A stretch of 64,000 nucleotides of DNA from Owenia fusiformis (Eukaryota > Annelida > Polychaeta > Sabellida > Oweniidae). Position numbers and translations under genes: made by a program. The DNA is taken from NCBI GenBank assembly GCA_903813345.2, contig CAIIXF020000005.1:16311375-16375374 (forward strand), given 5' to 3'. The notes below the pieces were generated by a model. It saw only the letters and a program-made list of their open reading frames with translations, was not told where the DNA came from and did no database searches. Shown in pieces: positions 2,935-54,700 of this stretch. Within the stretch, counting starts at the first letter, position 1; the number at the start of each line of letters is the position of its first letter.

Positions 2935-5900
2935 TCAGGTCTTTGTAGATGGAGCACCAAGCAAATACCTATAAAACAAACAAACAAACATGTTAACACT
3001 GGTTAGTGATGTATTAATTATCATTATCATTTTTACAATTTTGATTATATCCTAATGTAACCTTGAAACAGTCTCATTAAAGTTTCTAAACACTCTAAAT
3101 AATGTGGCAAATGAGACACATATTATATAAGCTATAGTTGATTGTCAAATGAGAAATCTCACCATTCAGTCCTAGCTTTCACTGCCTCCTTCCTGACCAA
3201 CCTCTTTTTATCATCAACCACTTCTCCTAGTGTATGTAGAATCTTTGACTTGAATGGGAAGAGAATGTGGTGAGGTAGTGTTGTCATCAAACCCAGGCAT
3301 TGTAGGGCTAGTATACGTACTTTCTGAAATTAGAGGTGATATCAATTGCAGTAATAATCACAGCTTAAGGCGCAATGTAAGATTATGGTAAAACCTATTA
3401 GGCGAGTGGGAGATCCAGCAAAAAGGCCTTATTTGTTGACCTTAATTAAGATAGCTTGCAACCGCATGAGTCATACCTGACTTTCATAATATGAATATGC
3501 AGATTTCAAAAATGGCAATAATAAAAATTGAAAAATGGCCGATCACTATGGAAACGGGACGCAAAAGCCACGCCCACTTTTTAAATTTCTTACTTGGTGG
3601 TTAATACATTCTAGAGTGTAACTTTCTCGATTTTTAACAAATCTTCACATTATTGGTATCTGCTGAAGCGTTATAATGAGTTCTTTCACCTCAAGCATAA
3701 ATAATGTTAATTCGCTCATTTACATATCAATTATGACGTCATAACCCTTCTTTTGGCCTCAATTTTCCATATAGTTACAACAAAGTAACAGTGTTTTATT
3801 AGTTACACTTCTTAAAAATGGATAAAAGTAGGTAAATATACTGCCAATACAAGCAAGAGTATGTCGGCTTTTGGGATATACTGATATTGAAGGCTGGAGT
3901 TGGTTAGAATAACATAAAAACTAGTTGCCATGGTTACCGTGAACTTTTCAGTAATTTAGGCAATAAAAACGTTTTGGACTGTAACTTTCTTTGTTTTTAA
4001 GCAATCTTAGCATTATTGGTATCAGAAGAAGCGAAATAATAAGTTCCTTCACCGCAAGCATAAATTATGTTAATTGGCTCATTTGCGTATCCATTGTGAC
4101 GTCATAGCCCTTCTTTTGGCCTCGATTTTCCATATATTTACAATAAAATAACAGTGTTTTATTAGTTAAACTTCTTGAAAATGGATGAAAGTAGGTAAAT
4201 GCAGTGCCAATACAAGCAAGAGTATTTCGGCTTTTCGGATATACTGATATTGAAGGCTGCATGTTGGTTAGAATAACATAAAAACTCGTTGCCATGGTTA
4301 CCGTGAACTTTTCAGCAATTCAGTCAATAAAAACATTTTGGACTGTAACTTTCTTTATTTTTAAGCAATTTTAGTATTATTGGTATCAGAAGAAGCGTAA
4401 TAATAAGTTCTTTCACATCCTGCATAAATTATGTTAATAAGCTTTATTTTTACATATACATTATGACGTCATAACCCTTGCTTTGGCATCAATATTCCAT
4501 ATATTAACAATATGATAAGATTGTTTTAATGGCCTCACGTCTTAATAATGGTTAAAAGTAGGTATATGTATTTCCAATACAAAGAAGAGTATGTCAACCA
4601 TCTAGATATACTGATAAATTAAAGTTTTCATGTTGGTAAGCATACCATAAACACTCGTTCCCATGGTTACCATGTACTTTTTAGACGATGAATCCTATTT
4701 TGACTAACTTTCTTGGTTTTTAACCATCTTATATTAACGATATAAACGATGTGTATTATGGTGCCATGATAGCAGAGTTAGATCTCCTTTGCCTGCTTTT
4801 GAGCTCTCAAAGCTCTTCATTTTATAACTCATCTGGTTCAGGAAAACACATCAGCACAGCACCATAGTGGATCACAGCTACGCTAGCTCTGATGAAATCT
4901 GTTCTCAGAATTCCTTCTCTGTTAATGCTGTTAATGTCAGCAATCGCCATCTGCGTCAAGGTTATTCTCCCATCTCATGCCATCTCCATAAACAGCAGCC
5001 ACAAGCAGCAACAGAACAATCAGCTTGAACAAGGACATTTCTCTCGCTAGGTTTCAACTATTCTCCTCACTGTTTGTGCCTTGCAAGAGTTGGTAACCAT
5101 GCTTCTATCCAGATTAAAAAATTGTACAGGATGAATTGCTGAGTAACTGGATATAGAACTCTTACTCTCGGGGAGCTTTTCTCTCTTCTGACCTCTTTTG
5201 GGGCTTTAGCCAAACATAAGACATGTGCCCTTAGGCTGATCAATCAAAACATACCAATTGACAGCTCTACAAAACATGTACCTTCTCACAACAACTCCTA
5301 CAATTAATGCCACAATGTGCACAGAGCTCTCTTCTGGAAACGTTTGACAGACTCTTTTATATTCCTCTTCATCTCCGTCTTTATTTCTTCAACCATTTAA
5401 GGAGGTTTCCCCCCACATGATCACTAGAAGAAAATGAGATATGATGATCCCGTTGTATTAGCTTGAGTCCTTTCTGGATTCATTCAGATTCCTGATACGC
5501 TTCCCCCCTCTGGGCCACTTCCATGGCCTGATCAAGAGACTTCTCTTCTGTGTACTGCTGCTCATCATCATCAGTTATGGCATTCCCAGAGCTCTACCTC
5601 GCTAGTCTATCTTGTGAAGAGCAAGGCATCTAGAGATATGTTAAAGCCTCCACCAGGTCATCATAGGCATACCCCTCTTCCAGCTCCTGCACTAGCTGCT
5701 GCGCTTAATATCTTCCATCAACTGGTTAGTATAAGGCCTGCCTCTTAATCATTTCTCTGCTTGCTCACCATGCAATTCTTGAAGTATGCTTTGAAGTCTA
5801 ACCACAGTGTGTTCCCATCAAACAATGGGGTTTGTTTAATCTTGGTTTTCCTTCCAAATTGTGCTAACTCTAGAGCCATCTCATACATGCCCAATGCTTT

Positions 5901-8900
5901 CTCAGCAAATTTAGCCTTTATAGCCTGTCCTTGATAGCATCTGAGCGCTGTACTATTACTCTCGCATCTTTATAACATTTGACCTCAGAGTTCCCAAACC
6001 TTTAAGACATCATTTGGGATTCAGTTTAATTCAATTCTCTCTTACAGTGAGTCACAGGATCTCCTCTCATACCAGGAATGTCTGCTGAATATATAAGCAC
6101 AAATGCCAAAAGGGAAGGGTGACTAAAAACTTTAAGGAAACCCGACAAGAAAAGCAAACTGTAAGTGTAAATCTGTCATAAGAAAAGTAGACCCTATATA
6201 TCCCAAAACCATGATCTAACGTGAAAAGAAACAATGTCTCACATCCCCCTCCCCCCTCCAATCAAGAACCAACAATATCAGAATCCAGGACCAGAACAAC
6301 AAATGACATTTCATTCATACTGAAGTCATTACAATACATGTTGAAGAAAAAATTGAAAAATTTATAGCCAATACTCATAGCATTAAAATTAGTTGTAGAT
6401 ACCAGTACTCATAAAAGATAGAGTATTCAGTCTCAAATGATGAAGTTAGAGGAAGCTGCCTCATCGGTCTCAATGTATAGGTAGCAATCTGAAGCAATTT
6501 AATGAGGGTGTTGTCGGGACAATTGGGTCTATTTCAACAGAATATACTGGTCTTGTGTGCCACAAATTGTACGTAAGATGTCAAAGTTGTATATTTGCCC
6601 CTAAAATTCTGACATTGTCCTGACAACACGCCGATCGAAGTGCCTTAGATTGCTACCTCGTAATTTTTCTGGTAACTCAGACCTAGAAGAAGTCAGTACA
6701 TATGGTCTTAGTCTGGATTCACCCAATCTGGATTCATTTCTTTTGGAAATACTTTGGTCTCTCCACTAGGAGTCGTCTTGGCTCTCTAATTTTGGCCCAC
6801 TTTTAGTGTGTCATCCACTTTAAAACCAGGAGCATCTCACTTTTCTCTCCAGACAAGACTGCTCTTCTTGACACATTTCATTTGGAGGGGTTTCAAGCTG
6901 TTTCAATCACAACTTGGGAACCAATTTAACCATTTCTTCTGGAATCCTCTTCATCCAAGATTTCTGACTTAATCTCAAACTTCCTTGACATCTCATCTCT
7001 TTGGGCAACAGAACCCATCACTGCCACCAATGTCTCGCTTTGCCTTTTCCTGAGTATCCCGTATGCTCATTAAAGAGAAGATCAGGGGCGATCAATAATA
7101 ACTCTTAGAGGTTTTTCTATGAGTGCCGACCTTGTTTGGTGTTACCGCAGTTAAAGATGGCTCACATGAAACAATTGCATACACATTTTTAAATCTATTC
7201 CAACAAAGATGAGACAGAAAACACAAATGTCCATATATGATTTAATGTCACTATGATTGTGTATCTTTGGGAGTCGGCACATCTCTTTGGGAAATATATT
7301 CTCTGCTCAACGAACGAAACTGCGTGATCTACACTCCCACTATTGGTCTGAATGAAATGCTACATAGAAATATGAGCCGTCTGCTGTATTAGTCGATTAA
7401 TAGAGAAAGACCTGTTGGTGATGCTTTATAATTTAGACCAAAACATTGAAGAACAAACGAACCTGTAAATCGTGAAAACAACGAACAAATATTCGGTTTT
7501 CACATATGTTCGGTAATTTTTCGTATTGAAACTTCCGGAACTTACAAGGAAATCATTCATTTTCTCGATCCGTGATTTACCTCTTGGATGTTGTGGCAAA
7601 TGCTCCATGGTTGACGGAACAAAGGTGATATGGTTTCATTAAGATTCGGGTTCTAACCTTTAGAAGGTAAGTCAGACTCCCAAACGTCAGCTAACTCTTA
7701 TATTTAGCATGTTAGCGACGCAGACAGGCCTTGAAAAATAGTATTGATGGTGTCTAAGGAGGACCCACCCTCAATCTCGTTCCTAACGAGGTCTTGTCTC
7801 TTCAAGATCTTGTGTTACTCTGATTCACATGATCAGTTTCTCACACCCAAGTTCAGACACCCATTATTGATGAAAATTTATTCAGCCAGGAAAAGAAGAT
7901 TAAGGCATCTGATTGGCTGGTGGCCAGTTACTTGATAGCTGATTATTTGAAACTGTCTGCCAAACCAGTAAACATCAGTATGTCTATGTGTCATTATGCA
8001 TATACACTACTCTTTACTAAAGATATTCTGAACTACAGGGAACAAAATATGAAATGAAGTCAAAATGACATCAACTGAAACTACCTATAATTGACATAGT
8101 ATTGCCCAAAACTGACCATTTTAGTCCATAACCTAACTTTGCCAAGTGGTTGATTGGTTAACATTTTAACGTCATGGCTCCCCCTAGCTATGCCTAGTGA
8201 ATTAGTGAAAGTAAATGGCTGCCATAATACTGACAAAAATACATCATTTTTGTAAATGTTTTACTGTTGCTAGGTGTATCTGGTCAACTTGGACCTAGTC
8301 AACTCAGACCCTAGTTAAAGGTATTCTGGGAGATACAAGTGACAAAATATTGCTTCTGGAACGAGATCAAACGACTTTGACATATTCTTTACCCTACCTA
8401 TGTTGCAATTTAACAATCAACGCAAGTATACATACCATATTTAAGCACATACCGGACACATTCATAAAGATATTTTTTGATTGATCAAATCGATTATTCA
8501 GATTTTGCCTTGGATTTGATTTTAAATGCTTCTAAATGATTTTCTAATGCTTACTATGATTTCTATTCTATTTTTATTTCGATAAGCATTTAATCAGGGT
8601 GTTGAAGTTAACAAAATATAGAGGTACTACATTAATTCCAATATGCAGTATGAAGAAATATATCAGTAGATTTTTGTTTTAAGGTACAGCTTGAAAATAA
8701 CATTTATTGTTTGTAATACATTTTGGGTATATTATTAAAGCTTCATGTAAAATCATACTATTGATGACTACATTTTAGGCATATTTAATCCTATTTGATT
8801 TCACAATTAGAATGTATGAATTATGATTGACTCTTGCAATTATATATGAACACTTTTGCTTTTATATATTAATTTTCACTTTAACACTCAAAATATCGAA

Positions 8901-11900
8901 AAAAAGATTCAGAAATACATTGGTACTAGTTGACTAGGGCCTGAGTTGACTAGGGTCAAAGTTAACTAGGGTCTGAGTTGACTAGGAACCATTGCTATGT
9001 GTTTGCTAGGCATATGTTATGACTACACAATGCCTAAATATATAAGGGTTGTGTACTGGGAGGTTTTGGATATGGGGTTTATCCAGAGGGAGATATGCGT
9101 ATCTACCTGAGGGACTGTAGGGACCAAAGGTAGATGTGCATATCCTCGTAGAATTGAGACTGCCTGAGCTGCTTGGGGGAAACATACGAACTATTAAAAA
9201 TGTGAAATATGGACATCACTAAAAATGCTCTAAAAATTTGTAATGTAACCTATCATTCGGAAAATTGGTGTGTGATCAGCAAATTGAATTCCCTTTAAGA
9301 TGATTTTTGATAAACCTATGATAGTTCTAAATTAAAAAATTATGGGGATGGAGAACAGACTTATTTGGTGCCCTGTACATTGTATTTATGAAGCTCAGAT
9401 GTGTTTTGTGGTTGCATAAATTGTAAATTACATAATTTTGGACAAAATACCTCATTTTCGGCAGCTTTTGACCGTTTTTAGGTGGTTCTTAGGCAGGTAC
9501 ATTTTATTTTGTTGCAGAGTGCCCGTTTTGAACACACACATTGGTATTTCTTAGATTATAATACTAGTGTCTTAATCTTAAATAAGCGTTTTGATAACAT
9601 AACCTGTGAGTAAATGGTAGAATACTGAATGAACTATCTCATTTTTTTGGCAAACTTAAGAACATTTCTATATGGTTTCTAGGCAACACAGATGACATCA
9701 CAATAACCAGTGTACAAAGACAGTGATATACTGTAGTGTCAATGCTGAGGGGTGATTCTTTCTCCATATCTAGATGTTTTAGTGCCTATACAATGATGAA
9801 ACTAGGGCAAAATGGCCATAATAAGGCGTTTTAATCCATTCCTAAGTGGCTGCTAGGCAACAAGATGACATCACAAGTTCTTAACCACTTTATATTTGAG
9901 GGGGGTACTATACTGGACATATGCGCCACGTTTTGTTTTCCAACGTCTAAATGGTTTGGTAGCAAACAGGCATAGACATACACACGCATGATAGACAGAG
10001 AATCAGTAAATTGTAGTAAAATGCGATTAAATATGGATTCAGCATTTTACCATAGTGTAGCCATGGGTTTAAGAGGCTCTAGAACAAAAGTGTATAAGTG
10101 TTATGTAACATCAAAGGTATAACTGGAAAGAGCACATTAACGTGAACAAAAATAATCTTATTTCATTTGATAAGAACATCCACTAAGGTATTTAATTGAC
10201 ATTGATGTGGAGCGATTCGTTAAATATACCTTAAAATGGGAATTTAAGGATATTATGACGTCATAATTGCCGGGTGAACAATTGAAACCGACTAAATAAT
10301 ACATAGGGTGACGGGACATTTTATTACCTTCAATATGGTACCAATATCATTAAAAATAGTTAAAAATTAAAAGAGTTATGGCCAATATTGTGTTTATCAT
10401 TCTTTATGGCTAATGAAAAGTGGGCGTGGCACTTTGCATCCGTTTCCATGGTTACGGGCCATTTTTCAAAACTTTTCATTGTCATATTTGGAATCTACAT
10501 ATCAATATTATGAAAGTACAACATGTTTTGAGCGGTTGCAGTCAATCTTAATTAAAGTTCCATATTTGACCCTGCTCCCACTCGCCTATATCTTAATTCA
10601 AAAGTTGTTAGAACTTGGTAAAGTGTTTCAATTTATAATTTGTTCACATATTGACTTTTTGATATTTTTCGCTTTCTTCAGGATTTTGCATTTTCCATAA
10701 ATATCAAAAGTTCAAATGACAAGAAAACTTAACGGGATATGAATAATATGAAAATGTTATATCCATCCGATTCAAATCAATTCAAAAGTTATATCAGAAA
10801 AAGACGCATTATGATTGAGACCATTCAATTGAGACCATCAAAAATTACCAATTTATCACATTCCATTGAGGTATACATCTTTTACATACCATAGATGGTT
10901 GATGCTTTGTCAGCTTCTGAACCTGAGGAATTGTTGATTCAGCATATTTGGCTAGAACCATGGGTGCATCAAACAGCAAGTCATAGAGTGTCCCCATAGT
11001 GGCAAGCTGCAGGGATGTCACATTGCAACACAGGGACTGTACTAGCATTGGCATCAACTACAAAAACAAAAAAAATCATATAGAATAGAAATGAGACATG
11101 GGACCAAATCATCCTTTGGATATAACTGCATTGAACTTTAAAATACTTATAATAGTCCTTATTCCAAGATATTGTTGTTCAATTAAACTGAGTGTCGGTA
11201 TTAATTCAATTTCATATTTAAGAGACTTACTGGTGGCAGTTCAGTTTTGAGGACCTGTTTAGGGAGGAACCTCAATAGATGGGACAGCCCGGTCAAATAA
11301 TGCTGCTTAAACTCTGAAACAGTGGAACAACACAATATTTAACATGTTGATAAAAACGAAAAGGAAAGTCTGGTGAAATATACATATTGCATAGAATAAG
11401 CTGAACATTGTATTTTGATTTAATAAACTTACATTTCAAAATGATACACTATGTAGTGACAATGAGTACATTTTTTTACAATTTTACATTTAATTATTTA
11501 CCTGGTTTTGTGTTATTGAAACCTTCCATTAGAATTGGGAGTGTTTGCTGGAAGAATCGCTGTCGGTACAATATCTTTACATCAGCATGCATTGTGGGAA
11601 GCATGATGTCATCATATTCATTTAAGATGACATAAAACCCTTCAGCAGATGTAGAACCAAGTAAAGGATACTCAAACCACTTTACAATCTGGAGAAGCAG
11701 ATAATAAAACAAGTAGTTTTCATTAACAATTCATCAGGCTAGTAGTCAGAGGGGGTTCAGGTGAACCCCCCTTCACCAAAAATTCTTTCAAAAGCATGCA
11801 GTTTTCCTACATGTATAAATTCAAATGCTTAAACTAAAGAAAATATGATCAAAATAGTTATATTAGAATAGTTACATAGAATAGCAGAGAAAACTGTATG

Positions 11901-14900
11901 ATTAATCTAATCTATCAGCGTTTATACTATAATCGTATCTAATTCAAACTATAAACGTATCTATTTTAGATACACTCATTCATGTAATTCATACATTGCA
12001 TATTATTTTACGTTCTTGTCTCATTGAAGGCAGAGCCAATGAAACATTGCCCAAGCCTTAGTATCTGTATTAATTATGAATGTAATGATATACCTTTAAA
12101 CCTAAAAAGATTGCTTAAACAAGAGTCATACTGCTATGTATTGAATTGTTCATTTTAAATAGTCTTGGGGCAACAAACTAACCTCTTTAGTAAATTGCAT
12201 TGACTTCATATGGGCAGATAGAACCAGAGCTTTGGTAATCCATGTCCAAGTTGTGACATGATGACACCTCAGGGTTGTCTCATTGTCAGCGTCTTCTATA
12301 GATTTGCCTAGATCTTCTAGAATGTTACCCAACAATTCCTGGATGCCTGCGTCTATATTATCGAAGAAAAAGAGGTTGCTGTACAATAACTTATGTTTTG
12401 CTTTCCAATAAACATAATACTATTTCTCATTTACAGACAGAAAGGAATTACATTGCAATTTGCAAATAAATTGTACGAATGCATTACTGTAAAGTACTGT
12501 ATCAAAAATCATTGTATAAACTATTTTATGAAAAACTAAACTGAATTTAATTAAAACATACAAGGACCAAATACAGTGTCACTTGTAATAATATATCTTT
12601 AATTTTTTGTGATTCTAAGAAAATGCCAAAAGCATACCTTTGAGATATTTATTAAGGAGGCCAGCAAGACATTTAGATGCATCTTCACAGATCTTGATAT
12701 TCAAAGTGCTTTTACAAAGATTGTACACCTTTTCACATAGTTCACGTAAATCCTCTATCCTGGTCTGAAAATATTCAACAGTGACAGTAAGATGGCTCCT
12801 TTGTAGTTAGCACTGGGCTGTTTACCTTTGTATTTTAGTGAAATACTTTTCTTATATATATAGTTATAATTTTGTCCATATTTCATCACTCAGAATGTTT
12901 ATTGAGTTCACTGATCCCTTCTATTCAGAACTGATGCCAAAACACGTTAGAAACTGGGGTGAATTTTTGGTATGATTTAACTTACAATGCTTTAAGGATT
13001 GTCTACTGTCAGATTAACTTACGACAAACTTATAAGCAAAAGGTCACACATACTGTAGACTTACATTTGAGGGAAGGGAGCAAACAATTGCAGTGAATAG
13101 TGGCAGAGTAGCATGGTGGCCTTCCGGTGAAGATACCTAAAAATCATTCAGCTTTATGAATTTATCTGACAAACATTAAAACAAGTGGGCGATTACAATA
13201 GCCCACCCATGAGAGCTAATTAGAAATTTTATCAAGTGAATACATACTTTATACTTGAATGTCAAGTATCTAATCATACTGAGGAACATACTCTTAAATT
13301 TCAAATCAATGTTTTAAACAGCTGAAAAAGTGTGAACAAAAGTTTACATGGTAAAGACAAGGTTGTAGTATGGAAAATCAAAAGTGGTTATCTTAAAATG
13401 TGCAGTTGTTGATTCTGGATTAAAACAGTTTCTGCTTGAACTAATTCGTCAAAAATGAACTCATAATTCAATCAAGGTACAATTTCTGCAATTTCTATTT
13501 TAATAGGGCATCAACAAAAATACACACTAACCTCTAGAGGTAGAAATGGCTGATCAGATGTAATGTTAATTGATTCTAGGTTTCCCTCTAAAAATATGCA
13601 ATTTGCAGTTCCAAGTACACTCAGAGCCTGCCTGAAATCATACAATCATACTTTGATATTATATGGATTTAGAAGCATAGATACTTACATCAAGTCACAA
13701 CAACCTGAGGCAGTTGCTTTTTATATAAATGTAATATAAATGCACAAAAGTCATGAACAATATTCAGTCATGAAATTTGATGTACTCTTAATAGTACCAT
13801 GGGCTTTCAATTAGAGCCCATGATAGTACTGAATAAAGAAAATGTGGTATTTTTAATATTGCATATGAACTATATAGAAATTTATGATACAAATATCATT
13901 AACATACCCTTGAGACAACTGTTGCACTATGGTCCTTAGCACTGCTGCAACATGGGTAAGAACACCCTCATTTGAATTGGTACTACTAGCCCCATCTATT
14001 GCACTGTGAACACATATTCTGATAAGATCTGGCATAAGCTGAGATGTATAAAAGTCCACATTTCCAGTAAAGTTTGCAGACTGTTTTACTACTGATAATA
14101 CACACTCAGCTGCCTTGTATGTGTCTATACTGAGGGAGGGGGAATCTGAAAAATCAAAACACACGTATACATCTTAATTAACAAAATCATGGCTCATTGA
14201 ATACTGCATATCATGCTTTATTTCCATTACAATTTAACAACAAAAATAGTAGAGATTCAATAATAGGTGAGGCAAAATGAAATTGGACAGGCAAAATGTA
14301 AGCCAAAGTGGACATTAGCCAACTAAATGCTGACATAACTTTCCCTATTTCATTCAAAAAATGTCTCAAATTAACTGTACATGATTTTAACAAGGCATTA
14401 ACATGGAAAATGTCACCACCTGCTACAGACACCGAACACATACTGTCAAACACAAAAAAAAGTTGGAGACTATACCAATATATCGTCACTTCTGTAGGTG
14501 ACATAAAATTGGAATGACAGGAAAATGCTAAGACAGACTGAACTTGCTTGTTTATGATTGCAGTTTTCGTAAACAGTATACAAACATGTGATGGAATATG
14601 TTTTTTCCGTAAAGTTTGATTTAAAACATGTGTTAACTATACCTTTTACGTCACGCTTCATATACTGGACTAGAATTTGTACTATCGGTTTAACCAGGGA
14701 ATGCTCTGTACATATAGCTGCCATGGTTTCCAGGATAAAACTATTGCTCAGATTATTAGCTATCTCTGTTTCTGTTTCCATAGGTTCTGAAAACAAAGTT
14801 ATTCTACTTATATCATACTAAATATCATAAATGTATCAAAGAGGTAGGTGTATTAAAGACCCTATGTAAAGTTTAAAACACGTTTGCTTATATCATAGTC

Positions 14901-15913
14901 TTATCCAATGTTATCAAAATGTGGTATGCAGAACCTTAATTTCAAGGATATTTTGTTCAAAAAGTTGTGAATTTTTCACATTTTTCCAAAACATATCTCA
15001 AATAGTTCATGAAAAGATAAAATTTACTAATTTATTAAACGATATTTTCAAACTTCGCACGGGGCCTTTAAGAGTAGCTATAGTAATTAGATTTCATCAT
15101 TAAAGGACATGTATAAAAATCTCAAATAGCGAAAACTGATTTAAACAAGCTATATAAAAGTTAAAAGTGAATTAATTCAAAGATTTTAAAACAACAAAAA
15201 CTCCGAAGTGACAAATACATTGACATTTACCCATACTATCCCATAGAGATGCACAGTTGAGAGCACACATTATAATTTTAAAATAACACCACCTACTGGG
15301 GCAGTTAGCGCTAAGTTGCAATTATGAAAGTAGAATAAAGTTACATACATTTGGACATTGATGCCGGTAACAAAAAATTGCAACTTTAATAAATACTACC
15401 GCTTCTTGGTTATGATAGAGAAGGCCAGAGTGATCCAAATCAATATTTAATATTAGAATGTGTTTCATAGTTGGAAAGGGGAATGAAGATTTATACGATA
15501 AAGGTTTTCATAAAGTTCTTATCTTAAAATATTTTCTCTAAATGTCAACCAATTCTTTCACAATAGCACAGCAATTAAAAATTGTATTAACCAACAGTGA
15601 GCTGATATTTCTGCAAAGCAACCATAAAATAATAAAAATGCAGTGCTAAATTCAAGATACAAAATCTAATTAAAGAAAACATTTTATGATGGACATTATT
15701 TTCCACAACTGCCCCATGAACTGGAATTTTCATACAGCTTGAAATGAATAAGAGAGAGTACATGCTAAACACTACCTATTTACCCTACTCTTACATACAG
15801 TCATTGTTACCTTACCTTGTGTCAGTCTCTCATTGAGAGCTGGAAGAACCTTCTCTTGAATCATAGCAGGGTACTTGCTGGCTATATATGCAATGGCAGC
15901 TGTACTTTCCTGT
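2935..15913 (-). CDS. MMS19: MMS19 coding exons 14-25 (C-terminal half)
   Basis: Exons in transcript order: 15913-15816, 14786-14643, 14145-13908, 13631-13532, 13136-13065, 12764-12638, 12352-12183, 11688-11502, 11313-11231, 11057-10890, 3323-3163 and 2968-2935 (TGA at 2937-2935). Diagnostic peptides are TWTWITKALVL (exon 20), HADVKILYRQRFF (exon 21), YLTGLSHLLRFLP (exon 22) and VRILALQCLGLMTTLP (exon 24). These match the C-terminal HEAT repeats that bind CIAO1/CIAO2B in the human protein. The Trp codon at the 24/25 junction is split TG|G. The 7.6 kb intron before exon 24 is swollen by transposon sequence. Exon 14 is the parent of a 98-bp tandem array in the intron upstream of it. Confidence 0.95.
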
Positions 15914-18900
15914 CTGAAACAATAAGGTCAAGACATTACAAATACAATACAGTTTGTATCATAGCAGGGTACTTGCTGGCTATATATGCAATGGCAGCTG
16001 TACTTTCCTGTCTGAAACAATAAGGTCAAGACATTACAAATACAATACAGTTTGTATTAAAGCAGGGTACTTGCTGGCTATATAGGCAATGGCAGCTGTA
16101 CTTTCCTGTCTGAAACAATAGGGTCAAGACATTACAAATACAATACAGTTTGTATTAAAGCAGGGTACTTGCTGGCTATATATGCAATGGCAGCTGTACT
16201 TTCCTGTCTGAAACAATAGGGTCAAGACATTACAAATACAATACAGTTTGTATTAAAGCAGGGTACTTGCTGGCTATATAGGCAATGGCAGCTGTACTTT
16301 CATGTCTGAAACAATAAGGTCAAGACATCACAAATACAATACAGTTTGTATTAAACCAGGGTACTTGCTGGCTATATAGGCAATGGCAGCTGTACTTTCC
16401 TGTCTAAAACAATAAGGTCACAAGATAAAAACATTTAAAAATAATGTTTAATTTGAAAATTGGTTTAATTTGATGGCCGTTTTAATTTGGCAGATTGATG
16501 ACAACCTCCAAATTAAGTATTGGACAATTTTTCAATAAATCAAGGGGTTCCAAGGCAAAGATTTTTCGTCCAGTGAATTGTCCTTGTGTGAGTCTGTGTG
16601 ACCTTGCAGTATAAAAAAATTGGAAAAAACTAAAATGTCACTACTGAACTATTTTCGAAGATCTACAGATCCACTGCTGGTTCAGACAAAAACTTCTGAT
16701 GAAAAGCGAGATAAAATAGCAATTTCGGTGATGAGCTCTGAGGTGAGGGGCATTGAGGATGATCTTAAGTACGGCAAACGAGGTACCTTGTTATAGAGAT
16801 CTATTTTTGAAAAACATTACGTGCATCTTTGTACGAACCCTCCAATATCCGTATTTTACTGATGGGTAAATCTGCCAAATTAAATAGCAGCCAAAATTTA
16901 AAAAATTTGCCAAATCCACCAAATTAAATAGTGCCAAATTAAAGCAACTTACAGTATATGGTTTAAAGGTATCTGTTTTTATGGCTATTAGCAACTGATT
17001 TATTCGTAGATGGTTTCATTTTGCAGCTTTGTTGTTTTAACATTTCTTGAATTAAAAATTTTGGTTTGATACAAGAGCTCAAAATGAACTACAAAGTTCT
17101 ATTTAATATAGTTATTGTAATGCACATCAAACATGTCTATTCTAAATAGATGTGACACTTATAAGCATTAAATGCCCTCAGAAACAAATAATAATGTCCA
17201 TTTAAGTACTATTGAGGTTTCAAAATGAACATAATGAATGTATGTATTTTTATATATTCTACTGCTATCTTGATTTCATATTCTCTTTAAAATTACAAAA
17301 TAGTAAATAAAAATATTTGACTACTGTTTATTGATTGGAACAGACGTTTGATCTAGTATTTGGAAAATGGAGGAAACAATGACATTTCTAATTAATAGCT
17401 TTGATTTGTAATTAGTTATCTATATTCGTGTCTGCTGGTCTGCACATCATAGCATGAGCATTTATATTCAACTACACATGACTGTCATGAAATACCAAAG
17501 TTCAAAATAAACTAACAGTACATATCACTCATAGTGCACTCAAAGTACTGGATTGAGGACTGACCACAGAGCTTAAAATAAACAAACGACAGTACATTCC
17601 GGAGATTAATCACATTATTCTATTTACAAATGCATCAACCCTAAGCATAGGATTTAATCCTGAGTTTGCACTAACTAATACGAATACCTCAAAGTGGTCA
17701 AATAAGAGACACGTAAATAAACATTATCAGGATTAATCAAAGCACAGTGTGAAAAATATTGCACCATCTGATTGGCATCAGTTAAGTAATGATATGGAAA
17801 ATTAAACAAGACACACTGTTTTAATGAAGGAAACATCATCTTGAAAAAGGAGAAAAAATTCAAAATGGTCATCATAACTTATTATAGGTACCCAAAAATA
17901 AATTAGCATTAAAACTTGGTATCATCTATTATCTGTATGAAACTGAAGCAAATCTAATGAGCACTTTTGCTGGCGTACCAATGAAAAGAAATATCAATAC
18001 TGAAAATGGCGGACACAATTCAAGATGGCTGCCAAGAATAATCAGATCAGAATATTTTACCTTCTAACATTAGTACAAATTTGAAATGAATAAGAGTGTT
18101 ATTTTTGGAATCATTATACCAATAAGTAACTATACAATCTGATGGACAATTTTCCTGAAATTAATAGACAAAATGTGCGATGCCAGCACACAAACAATAT
18201 AATGACAGAAACAATACATATCATGTTCACCCTGCATTCATGGTGACAATATCCTACTTGTGGTGTAATATTTAATTTCATAAAAACTGTGAATTGGCAG
18301 GATGGAAAAGATTATTTCAGGATTATTTAAGGATTATTTAGAGATTAAAAGGATAAAGATAATTGAATGCAGTTTCTACAATTAATTACTTGAAAAGAAT
18401 GCACCTAATAGGCTAATATCCTATATTTCAAAAAAATTGACATTGTAACGTAGTAGCATTCCCGTTTACAAAGGAGAATTTGATCTACATATCTGGCATT
18501 TTCTTTTCAATGATATTGCGATAATTGAGCTTTAAGTTTAATATTCTCTGATATTTTGCTAAAGTTACTATTACCTTTAAACAGGTAAACCGACATCATG
18601 TGTTTCGAGGAAAATTGATGGCATTTGAAAGACATAGCCTAAAGGTCAATATAGCACACTGACAATACAATATAGACAACTGAACAATTGCTTATTGTCA
18701 ATATAACGTGACCTTTAATGATCTTTATCTTTTAAATGATCTAATGGAGGAATAAGATCTTATTGAAGATACCAGAACATTCATGACATTTGTTTTCCAT
18801 ATTGAGGACTAAACAATGTATCATGAGAAAACGAGTAAACCTTACAAAGCAATGAATACAACATTGCCTTTGTGCTTACACTGAATTATTTATATAATAC

Positions 18901-21900
18901 AACATACATCATGTTCGTAACCAAGTAGCTTTGAAACACAAGGATTAATGCTGAAGATTAGTATAAACTGTCGTTAAGAGGATATTCAGGAGAAGTCCCA
19001 AAAATAGCGTGCTCAATTTCTTTATCTTAATATTTGTAAACCAATGTAAAAGGATGAAGTTGCCAATGCGATTGCTGCTAGCTACTGCAGCATTTTTCTT
19101 CATAATTGTATATTTGATTGCAAATAAACATTCAAAAACACAATCCATTCAAGACAAAACAATAACTCAGGATAAGAGTTTAAGCTTTCGCAAAAGTCCG
19201 CAAAATGAACTCACCCAAAATGTTTTGCTTCAAGAGATACAAACAACCACGAGAGCTAACATATACCAAACTTTAGAACAATTTCAGAAAGAACATAAAA
19301 AACTCCCTACAATTCTCAAAGCACGAGCTGATATATTTTCTCAAGATGTCCTGGATTATGTTGATGTTAATTACAAATATGAATTCAAGATGTTTCCAAA
19401 TACAACAAGAGAGGTTCCAAGACGTAGAGCTCCCATCAATGTTGTGATCATACCTCACTCTCATGTCGATCCGGGTTGGCTCCAGACAATTGATGAGTAC
19501 TACAAATACCTTGTACATGGTATCCTAACAAACACTGTGTTAGCCTTAACAGAAAATCCTGAGTTGAAGTTTATGTGGGCTGAGACAGTCTTCTTGGCCA
19601 AATGGTGGGACAACCTAACCATAAGTGATGTTGATGGTGTTATAAAGATGAAATTCCAAGAGTTGCTGAGGCAGGGGAGATTTGAGATTGTGATGGGAAG
19701 TTGGGTGATGCCTGATGAGGCAAGTACGCATTTTTACTCAATCATAGACCAAATGGTTGAAGGACATCAATGGTTGGAACACACCCTAGGAATAAAACCT
19801 AACTATACTTGGTCTATAGACCCATTTGGACACTCTTCATCATTTCCTTATTTTCTCAAATCAGCAGGTTTTAAAGCAATGGGCATAGGCAGAGTACATG
19901 CCGCTGTGAAACGTCACTTGGCCCTAAATCAGAGTCTGGAGTTTCACTGGAGACAGGCGTGGGATCACTCACGACAAAATGATATATTCTGTCACATGCT
20001 AGCAGGTGAAACCTATATAACAAGGGACTCATGTGGAACAAATTCTATGAAATGTTCTCAGTTTGATTTTACAGGGCATGATGGAGAAAGAATAACAAAG
20101 GATAATGTAGCGACACAGGCAGATATACTTTACAGACAGTATCTATCAAAGGCAGATTTATTCCATACAAACACCATTTTTAATCTAATGGGGCATGATT
20201 TTAAATATAGTACGATACGTTCACACACATATATGTTGGAGAATGTAAGACAACTGATGCGATATATGAACCACAACAGAACAATGAACATTAATATAAA
20301 ATTTGGTACATTGGGTGATTATTTCAAAATGGTTCAAAATGACACAAATTACATGAAAATACCGTCTCTAATCGGAGACTTCTATCCGTACATGATGACA
20401 AAAGCATACACTTCCAAGGACTATTGGACGGGTTATTTTACAACAAGACCTTTTGATAAATATCTTGGACGTGAACTTCAATGGATGTTGAGGGTTTCAG
20501 AAATTCTAAACACATTCGCTGCCCTGAAAATCCATCAAGAAGCGTTGTCTCCATATAATGATATAATAATGGAAAATCTCCTTAACCTAACTGAAGCACA
20601 TCGTGAACTGGGTGTGTATCAACATCATGACGCAATAACAGGCACTGAGAAAAAGCATGTGGCAATAGATTATGAAAGAAGAATGATGACTGGTCTTCAG
20701 GCTTGCTATAAAGTGATTAAAACTGCCTTTAACATTCTCCAAGAAGCAACAATGACATCTGGTGAAGACACAATCGACATAGACCAAAATGAGGATAATA
20801 ATCTTTACATTGATGATGTAAGGGATTTAACTGATATGCAACCATCTAAGATACTTATTGATGTTACAAAGGAGCAACAAATTATTGTGATCAATCCAGT
20901 CGAACATCACATAACTACAGTTGCGAGATTCTATATCAATGATCCTCATGTGAAGATATTCAATACCAGTGGTACTGAGATGAATGTACAAGTGAACCCT
21001 ATTTGGCAAGACATGGATGGTATGTTTGAAGATAGGTATGAACTCGTGATTGAGGTAACAGTAACAGCATTTGGAAGCTCTACATATAGAATAAAGCACC
21101 ATGAAGAAACAGCCAAATGCTCAGAAGTACTCATTCATGGTTCAAAAAATTATTCATCAAACGATTATTTCAAGATTCAAAATCAGGGAAATACTGACAT
21201 TCAAATCTCGAACTCCTATTTGAAGGCTACATTTTCATTTGATACAGGAGATCTGGTGAGTGTGCAACAGGGGGAAGATATCTACAAAATACAGGCCTCA
21301 TTTACTTCATACCATAGTGGTCTTGGTGGGGCTTATGTGTTCAAGCCCAGGGAAGAAGCATGGGATCCCAAGCAAGCGTTCACAATTCAAAATGCCACTG
21401 TGAGGATCATTCATGGTCATATAGTTTCAGAAGTCCATACACTTTATGCAGGGCTCACTAGAGTGTTCATTATACACCACACAGGGGTACACATTCAAAA
21501 GGCAATCTCAATTAACAATGTCATCGATATCAAAAACTTTCCGGTACCATTCAGAAAAAACATTGAAGTTATGATGGAAATTAAAACAAATATTATAAAC
21601 AAAAATCGAATATTTTATTCCGATGCGAATGGATTTCAAATGAGACCAAGGAAAACAAACCCAGATATTCCAGTCAATGGTAATTTCTATCCAATGACAT
21701 CTATGTTCTATCTAGAGTCGACCAAAACGAGGCTTACAGTTACGTCTGCTCAACCTTTAGGGGTTTCCAATTTGAATCCAGGGGAAGTTCAGATAGGACT
21801 GGATAGAATGACAATGTTTAATGACAACAAAGGTATGAGCGAAGCTATCGATGACAATAAAGTCACATCAAGCAGATTCATGCTTTTTGTTGAAAAACGG

Positions 21901-22802
21901 AGAAAACCTGCTGATGTGGCGACAGTGTCCATGCCTAGTGCTCTCGGACATTTGCTTCAGAATCTTATCAACAACCCCTTAGTTCAGATGTACGGAGGGA
22001 ATAAAAATAGCATGTATGAAAACCTAGCACTCATATCTGAAGAACTGCCATGCAATATTAAAATAGCACTATTCAGAGGACTTTTTGATAAAACATCAAA
22101 ACTGCCAAGGCTCAATAGTATAGGATTAACAATTCATTCAATAGTCTATGACGCTCATTTAAATATCACAATGTGCAAATATTCTAAAACATACAATATT
22201 GACAAAATATTCAATATTTCAAGCAAAGTTAGTCAGACAGAAGAATCGTCATTGTCTTTCATGCACAGAGTAAAGCTGATCAATATCAGTGATGATTTGC
22301 CAGTAAGTCCCATGGAATTAAAATCATACAAGTTGGATCTAGCGTGAACTGCATAATAATCCTTTACAATTGCCAGACTGCATTGAAACTCTTTATATTG
22401 GAGATATGTTTTTTTATAATCTAGTCTATATCCAATCAGAATATGGTGTTTGTAAATCCCTGCATTACATCTTTTACATTTCGTACAAGGCTGGGAAATC
22501 CCGCTTTTGCAATAGTGTAGATCTTATCACAACTGTAAACTGGGGTAGTTAGAGGGTAGTGTGCTAGCTGTTTGGGATAAAGGGTACAACTGAGTACTGC
22601 ATTATACAGGGCTGTCAACTTGGGACCACCTAATATGAGTGACTTCAAAATGTTGGACACCTAAGTCCAAATCTGAACACTTTTGTCCAAATTTTGAACA
22701 CCTTTGGCCAACTTTTAAACACCTTTGGCCAAAGTTTGAGCACCTTTGCCAAACTTTGAACACCTCAAATTTTCGCGCTCGCTATGCTCGCGATATCGTC
22801 AA

Positions 22803-22841
<39 letters not shown>

Positions 22842-25800
22842 AGGTACGAAAACTTTTCGATGAACATGCGTGACACATACGGGATACGCGTGACAAATCC
22901 GAACAAATTGCGTTCGGTTTTTTCCGGCGTTCTTATTTTTACCGTATCGTAAACATATTTCGAAAAAATTTCTACAGAAATATTTTTGCTTGACAATTAC
23001 CAGGTAAAATGCGTATTTTGCGTGACATTTTCTGTCACGCAAAAAAAACTGGCGTGACTTCAAATTCTTCAGCAAATGCGTGACAAATACGCAAATTGCG
23101 GGACAGTTGACAGGCCTGCATTATAGGCTACTGTTGAACAGAATATCTGTCTTACTTACACGCATTTAAAGTATCTATAGTTAAAATAGGTATAATATCA
23201 AGTGTTCTTCAAAGGATTTTTTTGATTTTTAGAGTGCAACATTTTAGGTTTTTGTAATATTTTGTGCAACATTTTTTTTATTTTAATACCACCATTCAGG
23301 ATTTCTTATTTTTGATTGTAACATTTTAGGAGGCACATCCAATTGAAACGAAAAGCGTTTTAGTGATATGAAAAATACTGGGGTCGCAGGGCTTCACTCT
23401 AAATAATTTGGGTAGGTATGTGAAGCACAGCCAATTTTGGCTTTGGGCATAAACCATGGAAACTGGTTAAACTGAGAAGAAAAAACATGGAGAAATCATC
23501 TTAAAAAGTACCTTTTTAGGTCAATGTTCAGTTTTTATACAAAAAATGGTTATTAATTGGTTAAATCAGTTGCCACGGCCTGGGACAAATCACTGGAAAA
23601 GTGGTATTCTATATTGTCTGAGAGGAATAAAACATTCAAATTTTCAATTTTGAGAGTAAAGAGACATGGAAAAAATGCTCAAAAATGGGCTCCTTGCCGC
23701 AGTATAGTTATTAAGAGGTATATTGGAGTGAAACCCCCAGGACTGGGGTGCTGGGCCTTTGTGATTTCAATGTGGGAGAGCACTAATCAAGTTGTTGGTC
23801 TGATAAATAAGTAAACTCAAGACCATTGCTACCTTATAATAAATACAACTATCTATACTAATTTTGTCAATATTAGGAGACCCATTGCAATTTTGTCAAT
23901 ATCATTATTAATTTATTAGGCCATCTGCAAGAGGCTTCCTTATATCTTCTATTTGAGCTTTGGAATGTTCAAAATGGCTACTCAAGTAGTGGAAATATCG
24001 AGATATGTATTGTATACCTTTATTATATACAAATAAAATATATTTAAAATAGATCATAAATGTTGTATATTTGTGTCTTTCATGTAACATTGGTACAACA
24101 ACAGAAAACATGTACATATATACCATAAATACCTATTTATAGTACTATAAATGTACTATAAATAGGGTACTCTTGATACCACTGAGATTCATTTCAAACA
24201 TCAGTAATGATGCCTATTTATTATATCATCCATGGGTGTTGCTAATACTTAAAAGGTAACTTCAAATTAACATCCAAGGGCTTTTATTTGTGTCAACAAG
24301 GGTGCTCAGACTTACGACATACAAATTTTTTTAATACATGTATATTATGACAAAATATTGGTCCAGGTTCTTGGACAGTATATGAGTGTAACATACTACA
24401 TGTAAGTCTTGCATTTTATGATAAACACAAGACTAAGTAAGACAGTCACATTTCTTTTACTGTTTCAGTATTTTTCACCCAAATATTTTTGACAGTTTTT
24501 GAAAAGTACAAGGTGAATAATTGAACAAGATACTTACATAGTGATAAGTATCACACTTTCAGATGAGCAAAATAGCAAGTGTATATTTACCAAGCATGCC
24601 AAAAACCTAATCTGATCTTTGCTATAGTCTGCTCTTGCATGTAAAAACTTTCAAATTGAATGGATATTAAGTGGTTTTCCTGGAAATTTGATGACAATAT
24701 TCATGTGGCACCCACCCGCATGCATAGACACACATCCAACAGCATAAGATGACAATATACTTTTTCAAAATGTGATAAAAATTGACTCACCTAACACTAG
24801 CCTCGTGGTCATTGAGTAAAAGTTGCAACATGTGCTCTGATATCATTTCCACCTCCGATGCATTCAAAAGGCCTTCACACGCGGCCATTCCAGCGAGACC
24901 ACATACCCCCAAGTTACGCAACTGGGAATTATTGTCATTCAAAATGGAGATGAATAGTGTCACTAAGGGGTCTTTGTGTTGACCAATAGGATTGTTTGTG
25001 CTATCATGGAAAGTTTGGGCTCTACGAATTAATCGAAGAAGTATGTCTAAAATGTTACGCCTTCTGTTGGGCTGAAAGAACAAAAGGATATTTGTTGTTC
25101 TCAGGTAAAATGTGGCAAGGAATAAGGTTTCATCTTCAAAGCTTTTCAAATAAGACTATCTTGAGTTTATATTGCTATTTTATATGTTTCCTACTAAAAG
25201 AAGGGTCCACATTTTTCAGCCTTATTTCAGCCATTTACAGCCTCACTAAACAAAAAAAAATTAACCATTTGTACAATGTTCAGTGGGGAAAAAAATTGAC
25301 GAAATAACTGTTTATCAATTGGAGAGCTTTGGAGATTTTTATCACATCATTTTGCTATTTTTACTCTCAAACTGTTAAAACAAACAGGTAGAAAGCAACT
25401 CATCCATACATGTAACCCCCATTTAAATCATCGTTACCTGTGTATTGGTATGAAACTGCTCCAGAATGACAGGGATTGTCTTGTTCAACATATACTGACA
25501 GGACTGTGGTGTGGCAAGACATGACTCTATCAGCTTGCTATTAGGGTAGAGCACCTTCAGGTCAGCATTGCAGATACCCTTGTGACAGTCTGAAGCACAA
25601 TAAATTTTCTAATATTGAAAGGGATTATTGAACATACCTGTCTCATGTGTTTCATACAATTGTCTCCTTGATCACATTAATTGGTCTCATTGAACATAAA
25701 ACCTGCTTAATATACACACCTCAATGATCAAATATCACGGCCTTATTGGTCATATACATGGCTGGCCTCATTGATCAATGATCATATAGACTGGCCTCAT

Positions 25801-28800: not shown

Positions 28801-31800
28801 GCGTGTATGTGGTGTAAAACATGAAACAAATATGTTGTACTTACTGGTGTAAAATCGATGGGGAAATAGCAAGATGTCACTTCAAACAATTCTTCAGCAA
28901 ACATTCCTTTAAAAAACAACAAGACATTTTCATAAAAAATGTCACCAATTGGTTCCACGCAGTATAACAGAGTAAAAATATGTTGTGCAAGTCCATTAAT
29001 TCATTACCATGGTAACCAATATTGCCTTGAATCATTAGGGATGTCTATTACATAACTTTAGATGATCATTGTTCTCTCATGAATATCAATCTAACCATGA
29101 CTTCTCAAGTTATCACGATGTTATAAATGTTATAATTTGATGACATGGTAACAAATATTAGGCAAAATCTGAACACTCTTGTTACATCTCTTTAGGCATT
29201 CATCAAATTTCAAACCAATGTATCCTGATGGAACTGAGGAGCAGGAGAACAATGAAACCTTTATATCTGAACACATCTCTAATCCAAACATCTCTCAATG
29301 TGAACTCTTTTTCTCTGTTCCAAATTTGTTATCTCCCATTGACTTACGTGTTTATAATACCTTGAAATGTGAAGACATGTTAATCTGAACACTTTTGGCC
29401 AGTCCAAGAGGTGTTCGGACTAGACAGTTTTTTTTACTGTAGTATGATTTGTTTGACATACCTATTTGGAAGTGTTGTATGATGGCTACAACAGATCTGA
29501 AAGCAATTAAGAGATTCCTGGGATCTTTCTCGCCATCCATCACTTGGATGTAACTGTAGACGAAGCTATTCCCAAATTTCTGCAGGGCTGCAAGATAAAG
29601 ACAAAATGAGCAGAGATGTTTTGGAACAATTGCATTTCTTTATATCAAATATACATTAAATCATCAGACTGTTTCTAGTACATAACATTTTTGAAGCAAG
29701 GGATCCACAACAGCAAGGCCCAACATTGAATGATACCAAAAAATGTTGGGAACTTTTTCTAAACTTGAAGGCAAAACAAGAATGAGCTGAGAAAAATGTT
29801 GTTAAATAGTTACTTGTACCAGTGCATATACATGTGAAAGGTTAATATATGGGGATCTGCAGTCTGGCTGGACGAGGTTGCTCATCACGTCACATCAAAA
29901 AAAATAAAAAATTACAGATAACCATACATCATCAAAATCTTTTACCTGTAAGTTTCTGTATAAGAAATGATTGCAATATATTATAAATGGTTCTCCTGTC
30001 TGCCTGGCTCAAAGACTGCACAGTGACCTCTTTAAATATGCTGTTACATATTGCCTGGACACCTTCATCTGTTAACCCTGAACATTCACTCTGAAATTAA
30101 GAAATCTTTTATAAACAATTTCCAATGTATTAAATTAAGAGATACAGGTTCCTACACTCTTTTCACCTTACTTTAACTTTCTTTTCAAATGTCAATCAAA
30201 TGGGAAATCATCTCATGTAAAATAAAAACATATATAATTGTGTATATGTAAAATATATAACATAAACTTTTCATTTGACGGCTAATAGGGCTGAATATTG
30301 ACAGAACTTTTTAATTTACATTTTACTGCATTTCATGTGCTTAAAAATATTCTAAAAAACAACATCCAAGGGAATCACATATGTACATGAAGTTCTTACC
30401 AGAGCTTTAAGTCCATGCAGCGCTTGTGGCGTTATAGAATGGTGATCTTTCAAGCGATCACTGAAGAATGCAACCAATACATCAACTGAAAAATTCACAA
30501 TCTTCATCTAAATGTTTCCATCTCAGATACTGTACATTTAAAATAATATCCTCTGTATTCAAAAGTGATAAAAATGAATCTCATATCTTAAAAATTCCTT
30601 CCAAATTTTAACAAGTTGAAATACAATAAAAACTTCTCAACTAGGCATTAGGCATTAACATGACAAAATATCACCACCGAGTTCGTATCGCAAATGGTTA
30701 CAAAAATGTAACAATAGTTACAGAATCACCCCAAACAGTCACAAAAAATAATCTGTTTCCATGGTAACATAGATTCATTGCCATGGTAAATGAAACTGCC
30801 AAAATTATGTTAGAAGTCATAACATGTCTTTATGTGTTGACAATAAAAATTTTGGATCCATTTGAACACTACTTCTGGTGGTGACATAATTAGGTCCGAA
30901 AAAAGTGAGCCTTTACCTTCTTGTGTGTTGAGATGTTGGGCAGAAAGCTTGTTGATGAGGCCTGATAAGAGACTGGTACCTCGACATCTCACAGTCACAT
31001 CGCCACTTGTAAGGTAGTCCCTTAACATACAAGTCATTATGTTACACAAGAGACAAAACATAAAAGTCATTGTGTTACACAAGAGACAAAACATACAAGT
31101 CATTGTGTCACAAGAGACAAAACATAAAAGTTATTGTTTTATACCAGACCAAAAATAAACTACCATAAATTACATGCACTTCTCCAACATGGTTCTTTAA
31201 TTATAATTTTATGATGTGAAAATACTCGAAACAAAGTGTAGAAATGGCACTAATGGTTCAAATTTGTAAGAATATACACTAGTTACTAATTGTCATTCTC
31301 TAAGTTTAAAATCACCATTACATATGTATTTTAAAAAAACTTTTTAGCCTACCTCAGACCTTCTACTAGCTCCACAAGCTTCAAGTGTCCTGCTTTGACA
31401 TCTGCAAAATACATAAAAACTGATCAGAAATTGCACAGTATCTATTCATAAACATCAAGGGCATTTAAGATACAATATACATGTACTATCTGCTGTTTGA
31501 AGTTTCCCAACCTACACTTTGAATGTCACACTTGCAGACAATAATCTTATGTCACTGGTCAACAGTACAATGAGTACAGTACAATGAGTTAGTATCATCA
31601 AAGATGGTGGACAAAATTCATTCAATACTGATGAACCTTCAATTTCACCTAAATCTGGATTCCAAATATTTCGTCATGCAAATAGTTCAACAACAAGGCA
31701 TGCGCAATAGTCATGAAGAAATTGAATGGGAATTTTACTTTCATAGCCTGGTGTATATTTACTCGAGTCTAGCCAAATGACTTGGGTAGAAGACATGGCA

Positions 31801-51700: not shown

Positions 51701-54700
51701 CTACCTGATCCATCTTTATTTTCTTTGATGCATTTTTGATGTCAAGTCCCTGGTTTATTTCTGCCTTCTCAACCTGTTGCTTCTGTTGCCTGTTGAGGGT
51801 CTCTATGTCTTGCTCATAGTTCTTCAGAAGGTTCTGGAAGAAGGAAAATAAGATTATTTTTTACATTACTTTATATCTTATCATCATAACTTCATTTTCT
51901 TGTGTTAATATGAATCTACAGACACAAAAAATACTCAGGTACATGTATTAGAGAGGTTTCGCAACTGCTTCTCATTTGAAGTGAACTACGAAGTACATGT
52001 ACTACACATAAATCTGGTGAATGCATTACAGATTTTACATATATTGGGCTAAAACCATTGTGCGAAACCTCACATCACTTTCGAGATAATCTCTCATGCA
52101 ATCTCACACCAGTTCCCAGATAAAGAAATATTTAGTTTATAATCTATTTTCTCACTTCTTGTTCTATGTTGAGAATATTCTGAAAATCATATGTATCCAA
52201 ATGGCATTGTCTTTTCTTCTTCCAACTTCCCTGCATGTTATAATATATTTTAACCAACTCTCCGTATGACTGCATGTTTGTGTTGTGTCTTCAATATCGT
52301 ATTGTCTTAATATTTTCAGTTTTCAAATATGCCACTCTGTCTTAGTATGAGTAATGTATTTATTTTAAATGCATTTTCTTTTGTCCAAGAATCATTTCTG
52401 CATTTTCATTTTTTATTTTGCTATATCTGTTTTTATGCACTTTCTCTGAAGCAAGAATTATTTCTGCATTCTTAATTCTCTCTTTTGCTATTTCTGTGTT
52501 TATGAACTTTCTCTGGAGCAAAAATTCTTCCTGTGTTTTCTATTCCCTCTCTTAAGCAAGGATAACATATATTTGAAACCACATGAATATACCTGTAGGA
52601 TTCGTTTACCTATGAGATTAAAAAGTAAATGAGGAACTGGCTAATTATTCTACACAATGCTGTTGTATGATTACAATAGCCAGGAAGGAAACCATTGTGT
52701 CAACATAGTGTACTAGTGTTGCTTTTATTTCCTTATTAATTAACTCAATGATAAAGTATATGTACATACACTATTTTGATGTGATCAAAGTGAGAGATTG
52801 AAGATATTTTTTGCATGCTAAACGTGTATCTTTAATATTGACTCTTTTAAACTCATATGAAGTGCAGTGCAGATACTTAAGACAAAGATTAACAAGGCAT
52901 TAACATGGACAATATGTCACCACCAGTTATTGAAAGTTGTAAGAATTTGTTACAGACACCAACCGCCGAACAACGTCCACAAAAAAGTTGGAGACTATGA
53001 GAATATGATGATATAATAATAAAAATTCAAAATGAGATCTATAAAAGGGCTAATCTAAAGCATTATTAATTAAATTCCAGGTCAATGTCATAAGAAGTGC
53101 CCCTTGGACCATTGGCATTTAAAAGATATCAATGTTCCAAATGAGAGATTTCATTATTTACCTGCATTTCTGTTTCAAACTTTTTCTCTTGTTGTTCCCT
53201 CATGTAAGCAGCCTTGTAGACTAGCTCCTGGTACTGTCTGTTCTCAAGCTTCTGTAGCATTTTCAGCTCTCTCAGGTCTTGTTTCCTGAAAATAGAATCA
53301 TTCTTATAAGTCTTCATTCAGCAATGCCTTGATCAACTCATTTGAGTCTTGTTTCCTGAAAATAGAATCATTCTTATAAGTCTTCATTCAGCAATGCCTT
53401 GATCAACTCATTTGAGTCTTGTTTCCTGAAAATAGAATCATTCTTATAAGTCTTCATTCAGCAATGCCTTGATCAACTCATTTGAGTCTTGTTTCCTGAA
53501 AATAGAATCATTCTTATAAGTCTTCATTCAGCAATGCCTTGATCAACTCATTTGAGTCTTGTTTCCTGAAAATAGAATCATTCTTGTATGTGTTCATTCA
53601 GCACCATGATCAATTTATCTTTCGTTTATCCTCTAATACACCTATGTTCATTCAGCGTAACAGGAATCAACTCACTTGTGGCATATTTCAATGGTTACCG
53701 AGCGTTGTATATCTATTCTTTGGGAAAAGAATTCATTTGAGCATTTTTTTCCAAATGACAAAAATTGCCTTTTATCAACTTTATAATGAGCCAACTTCTG
53801 TAATGTTCTTATACCCTTTTCCTGACACTTTCAATTTTCTAATGGTATACAAAACCTGGGACAAATAGCACCATTCATTTTACCCTGTTTGCTCAACCAA
53901 TATTTCAGCTATACCCTTTGTTATTTACCTGACCAACTCCAAAAATGCAATTTCTAACAACAAGTGAACTGTACAAGTACACATGTCTGTCTATATAATG
54001 GTTAGGGATTTCGCATTGTTATTATCATTCCTCAATGTACACTTGGAGCATATACATCATTTATAGAATCCAATTTTTCTATTTAATGCGATATGTGTCA
54101 ACTTTACCTGAATGTAAACAGTCTCATTGTATATAATGTCTCAGATGGTCAGATGATTTGTGTACATTCACGATCAAAACTATATTTGTCATTCTCAAAA
54201 AGACAATAGTTTCTAATCGAAGCTCCCAATTTATCATAACTTAGTTCATGCATAACTGCAATTATTCAATGATGTCCACATCAGTCTTAATTCCCTCATC
54301 TAAGAATTTAATATGTTTATATACAATTCATGTAGTTATTCCATTTCAATCCATTTGTATTTCTACATGTATCAATCCTTTCCTTTGATCATTGCACTCA
54401 CTACTTGAACATTTCCTTGTGTTTCAACCTATATTATGCAAAAATTCTGAAGGCTGAAACTCCATCAAGGATTATCATTACACTGAATGCATTGGACACA
54501 ATAGGATCATCAAATTAATTTCTTCCATCAGAGACCAGGCTCTGTGGTAAGTCAATGTGTTATCTCTTCGTTCCAGGCTCTCTAGGATATTGGTTTAATC
54601 CACATAAATATGATAATTATCAATCAGAATTTTCTACTTATAGTGCCATATTACACAAATCACTTAGAAAAATGCAATACCCTGTCAAAATATCTCGTAG

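Follow-up and report, generated by a model that had tools for sequence, protein, structure and literature searches.

The closest described systems lie in the human CBS gene. Its 844ins68 allele, a 68-bp insertion at exon 8, is reportedly a duplication that presents the 3′ splice site twice, and a 31-bp VNTR of CBS is said to be a multi-copy tandem repeat at an exon–intron boundary. The VNTR has shorter units and sits on the donor side, whereas in the MMS19 array described here the acceptor is repeated, as it is in 844ins68. The latter is the closest precedent, although it has two copies, in human, while the MMS19 array has six, in another gene and another animal, and is known here from DNA alone. 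The 844ins68 study describes mostly wild-type mRNA, with traces of another transcript found in the nucleus only (PMC1334203).

Two further systems bear on such a structure. In potato RdRp, as reported in PMC4974935, an intron was gained by tandem genomic duplication, which supplied the new splice signals; the MMS19 units contain no donor and give only extra acceptors, so that no new intron can form. Pairs of natural competing human sites have been surveyed (PMC9225289), and MMS19 poses the same one-donor choice with six near-identical acceptors in one intron. A literature search of partial coverage returned no prior report of multi-copy acceptor arrays. Duplication of an acceptor is itself already known; what is new is the copy number and the recurrence in one genome.

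Two acceptor arrays in one window

The window, that is, the whole stretch of 64,000 nt of the Owenia fusiformis genome that was analysed, carries a 98-bp tandem array over the junction at which an MMS19 intron ends and the following exon begins. TRF reports it with period 98, 97% matches and a score of 1035. Site strengths were scored with PWMs built from the acceptors and donors, 24 of each, of the MMS19 and kinase genes in the window, array sites excluded, a small set that makes the scores rough. As a splice-site test within arrays the PWM alone was rejected, since at the chosen thresholds each kb of non-array DNA yields 2.5 sites that pass as acceptors and 1.3 that pass as donors. The features are as follows.

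15816..15913, minus strand: true MMS19 exon, 98 nt, placed by homology; acceptor TTTCAG/ACAGG at 15913, PWM 10.6
24791..25071, minus strand: preceding MMS19 exon; 3′ end GTT AG/gtgagt, phase 2
15914..24790, minus strand: host intron of the array, 8,877 nt, longest among 20 measured MMS19 introns
15865..16420, minus strand: 98-bp tandem array, 5.7 copies, by TRF and unit alignment
16349..16403, minus strand: decoy 1, first transcribed; TTTTAG at 16403, PWM 7.3; exon-like part; 5′ flank unalignable with the unit's intron part
16251..16305, minus strand: decoy 2; TTTCAG at 16305, PWM 10.6; exon-like part with a Q>H change
16153..16207, minus strand: decoy 3; TTTCAG at 16207, PWM 9.7; exon-like part
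16055..16109, minus strand: decoy 4; TTTCAG at 16109, PWM 9.7; exon-like part
15957..16011, minus strand: decoy 5; TTTCAG at 16011, PWM 10.6; exon-like part departing from the true exon first at nt 55
31024..31159, minus strand: third array, 33 bp x 4.2 (TRF), stopping a few bases short of another MMS19 exon's acceptor
53276..53603, minus strand: second array (TRF), with 4.7 copies of a 70-bp unit and 98% matches
53162..53285, minus strand: true kinase exon, 124 nt; Pfam PKK E=2.4e-43 for the gene
53286-59040, minus strand: kinase host intron, 5,755 nt, longest among 6 measured

The initial annotation had described six nearly identical units of exactly 98 bp at a 3′ splice site of MMS19, with five extra acceptors of the form TTTCAG or TTTTAG ahead of the true one, and this description holds in each of these respects. 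The acceptor and a part of the exon are present in all six copies, the first exon bases (16403, 16305, 16207, 16109, 16011 and 15913) are spaced by exactly 98 nt, and units 2–6 differ from one another at 1–6 of 98 positions. The size given for the exon-like part, about 55 bp, needs amendment: the sequence is indeed derived from the exon, but it is not a uniform 55 bp, as the decoys follow the true exon to nt 47–54, with 0–2 scattered differences before that point.

The identification of the gene is likewise borne out. The MMS19 structure 6tc0 in PDB is matched with E=1.6e-11 over the preceding exon and the true 98-nt exon, and Pfam MMS19_C matches a downstream exon with E=9.4e-8 and 31.9 bits, slightly below the cut-off of 32.9. 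A protein search with this MMS19 region gave eight matches, all at the same locus, five of them being the decoys. The N-terminal exons could be located only partly, which leaves the number 14 previously given to the exon without support. The second-longest measured intron of the gene has 7,566 nt, against 8,877 nt for the host intron. An uninterrupted run of 37 Gs lies at 22804-22840 of the window. The acceptor that adjoins the third array (first exon base 31020, PWM 4.8) is itself unrepeated.

The second array, which the initial annotation overlooked, belongs to a kinase gene that we take to be SLK/LOK-like. Its four decoy acceptors (53565, 53495, 53425 and 53355) and the true one (53285) all score 9.1, and its decoys likewise run into a stop. 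Directly upstream, at ~53600-53690, the intron part of this array recurs in copies that look older and degenerate, and a Ninjurin-like gene on the plus strand (56034-56805; Pfam Ninjurin E=4.2e-26) is nested in the 5,755-nt intron. In MMS19 the lengths of exon and unit are both 98, which had been called a coincidence; the match does look like chance, because the corresponding values in the kinase array are 124 and 70.

Origin of the 98-bp array

A chance origin of the array is excluded by the TRF score together with the genome matches of a 26-bp intron segment of the unit: five matches with at most three mismatches, all five inside the MMS19 array. The 566-bp query covering the array has a single location in the 498-Mb assembly; both searches skip common words. 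A dispersed satellite or a transposon-borne repeat was rejected as a candidate, given that the unit is absent elsewhere by these same searches.

It might be supposed that a single junction was wrongly expanded during assembly or polishing, and the fact that the assembly represents a single haplotype would allow for this. The units, however, have their own differences, the array is confined to a single locus in the assembly, and arrays that differ from it in unit and length are spread through the genome sample. Such an artefact is therefore very improbable, the more so if the assembly was built from long reads like those reported for Owenia (PMC9977687): with the read N50 of 25–31 kb given there, one read would cross the whole MMS19 array.

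The array is most likely a young minisatellite spanning the junction. A stretch across the MMS19 intron–exon junction would have been duplicated in tandem and later expanded to six copies, and five intact decoy 3′ splice sites within the intron would have arisen as a by-product. Copy 1 differs from the other units at 18–21 positions, mainly in the intron part, and its flank has no significant homology to the intron part of the unit (a score reached by 1,689 of 2,000 shuffled sequences). In units 2–6 the intron-derived part upstream of about −27 is a segment that has no significant match in the flank of copy 1, and the 26-bp search of the 498-Mb assembly revealed no source for this segment outside the array. 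The flank as it now stands, if simply duplicated, thus does not account for the whole unit: either another flank has taken the place of the original one, or the unit acquired sequence from a different source.

Selection among the six acceptors

Four of the five decoys score 9.7–10.6, equal to the true site (10.6) or less than 1 bit below it. In the frame of the preceding exon all five encode R(Q/H)ESTAAIAYIASKYP(A/G)(L/M)IQTVLYL and reach a stop after 25 codons, in agreement with the initial annotation, which had placed the copied exon part in frame and ending at a stop. The true exon has a strong donor, AAG/GTAAGG (first intron base 15815, PWM 11.3).

With a good acceptor and in-frame coding sequence in each copy, the copies could be thought of as small cassette exons, spliced in singly or severally. 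This is hardly conceivable, as no site within the array exceeds 3.4 as a donor, compared with 11.3 for the true one, a stop occurs within each unit and only 98 nt in all are available between acceptor sites. A tandem array of cassette or mutually exclusive exons was rejected as a candidate on the same ground, the absence of a donor of its own in each copy.

The reading that we favour, with a probability of about 0.6, is that the array is a young minisatellite, that mostly the last acceptor, 15913, is used by means of exon definition, and that decoy mRNA would be destroyed, so that MMS19 output may be slightly lowered. In a very long intron the exon would be recognised first, the lone strong donor at 15815 pairing with the nearest acceptor across the exon; 15913 would be favoured because exon definition pairs the sites that are nearest across the exon. 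Most transcripts would then probably join the true acceptor, with low use of the decoys, and such arrays could be tolerated because exon definition picks the true site. With a host intron of 8,877 nt, recognition of the exon as one unit is to be expected, and 15913 would be used for the most part, with some leakage. Use of a decoy would add 98 to 490 nt with an early stop to the mRNA. Stop-carrying mRNA is expected to undergo NMD, so that the array may cost MMS19 a small part of its output.

In the human survey, long introns favour those sites that lie closest across the exon, and short introns those that lie closest across the intron (PMC9225289). The architecture of MMS19 is that of the former setting: the intron has 8,877 nt, and the one strong donor is 98 nt away from the true acceptor. 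The host introns rank first in length among the 20 measured in MMS19 and first among the six measured in the kinase gene, which also supports this manner of selection. The favoured reading draws support, too, from the 844ins68 precedent with its mostly wild-type mRNA (PMC1334203) and from the junction arrays at a dynein heavy chain exon and a CNG-channel exon (below). Against its generality stands an array in a dynein gene (below), whose intron has only 1,082 nt, array included; a long intron is therefore no general condition. The survey also reports an overall preference for the upstream acceptor, a bias that exon definition weakens without plainly reversing it (PMC9225289), and some decoy use in MMS19 is plausible for this reason.

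It is also conceivable that the decoys, being met first, are used substantially and their stop-carrying product is degraded, in which case the array would be a brake on MMS19 and its copy number would tune expression. The strength of four decoys and the in-frame stop in all five speak for this, but the exon parts of the decoys are cut off at about 50 nt, and heavy loss would be unexpected for a gene that is presumably needed. The overall upstream bias in the human data (PMC9225289) would add to the case for a brake, and the 844ins68 precedent, with its mostly normal mRNA (PMC1334203), detracts from it; on balance we consider such a brake unlikely.

Junction arrays elsewhere in the genome

TRF was run on a genome sample of 28 pieces of 10 kb, whose seeds were drawn from C1-C9 below 16 Mb and from C1-C12 below 30 Mb, so that the sample is not uniform. 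With a period of 40–250, at least 2.8 copies and at least 75% matches, 20 arrays were obtained in 344 kb. Seven were set aside as dispersed, as judged within the sampled sequence only, and 13 were left. Five of the 13 lie on splice junctions, namely those of MMS19, the kinase and the loci L010, L012 and L015; thus, besides MMS19, four of 12 non-dispersed arrays do so, three with homology support and one probable. As for the other eight, the flanks of six (L005, L014, L023, L024 and two in L027) were inspected by eye, while L029 and the main array of L031 fell outside the exon check.

The array in L015 (1453-2024) puts six decoys ahead of the true acceptor, seven acceptors in all, at an exon of a dynein heavy chain (Pfam DHC_N2 E=2e-20). 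The acceptor half of its unit looks better conserved among the copies than the rest, which could reflect selection or conversion from the true copy. The array in L010 (7687-8651) has 13 acceptor copies in 74-bp units before a probable exon that is glycine-rich and RGG-like; a search for homology support for this exon found none, and it reads on in frame into the next exon.

The locus in L012 (4867-10000) and L032 (C8:14776234-14781766) has 40 matches to an exon of a CNG channel with its donor, in near-identical copies at a spacing of ~139 bp. The exon matches CNGA1 with E=0.0042 and the next exon matches Ion_trans with E=6e-4, under the cut-off. The geometry is mirrored here: it is the donor that recurs, and the sole unique acceptor, weak at PWM 2.6, stands ahead of the first copy. 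An 86-bp unit in L012 has matches of 21 and 26 bp in the window and would count as dispersed by a strict rule, its 139-bp neighbour has no match, and the locus was counted once. A five-copy array of the donor alone adjoins the CNG exon array in L012.

Some other repeats have splice-like features. Array units in L027 (2259-3133) and L031 (8793-8973) carry a donor-like CAG/GTAAG, and no coding support was found for them. A 54-bp x 12 array in L024 (7593-8243) ends just before an exon-like open frame at 8250-8495 on the plus strand. In a check of two large families for arrays of whole exons, repetition of the same profile range within 300 bp was not seen among 80 DHC_N2 matches, nor among 92 myosin-head matches (65 of 210 candidates scored); copies of partial exons are invisible to this comparison. 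At C9:37986009-37994334 twelve exons, all matching myosin-head ~18-84, start 326–1,941 bp apart, which suggests a cassette of myosin exons used as alternatives.

Junction arrays recur in this genome, a point absent from the initial annotation, and their enrichment over chance is not established. That some mechanism draws arrays to splice junctions, making them a special class in the genome, is a tentative proposition and an unlikely one. With an assumed 0.75 sites per kb, 0.89 of the 12 arrays would be expected on junctions and the probability of at least four is 0.008, and in the window the array at 31024-31159 abuts an acceptor as well. At 1.5 or 2.25 sites per kb, densities of gene-rich DNA, the same probability nevertheless becomes 0.08 and 0.26, and for the 28 sampled pieces alone the probability of at least two is 0.20 even at 0.75 per kb. 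Moreover, the criteria were set after some of the arrays were known, and the arrays were examined unequally. As the P-value shifts with the assumed site density, we claim recurrence and not targeting.

Extrapolation from two homology-supported loci in 280 kb gives ~3,600 loci genome-wide, with a 95% interval of 430–12,900. One may imagine a large class of fast-turning junction arrays, whose decoys, placed before the true site in acceptor arrays and after it in donor arrays, are hidden by exon definition and whose copy number sets a stop-carrying leak that tunes many genes, but this we regard as quite improbable.

Five to seven near-identical acceptors per intron, in several genes of one animal, make a natural cis-competition experiment on the choice of splice sites. 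Since the competitors do not differ in local strength, counts of junctions in ordinary RNA-seq would show directly whether position across the exon or across the intron decides. Should decoy use rise in step with the number of copies, such arrays would also generate, in a simple way, heritable variation in expression that is absent from gene annotation.
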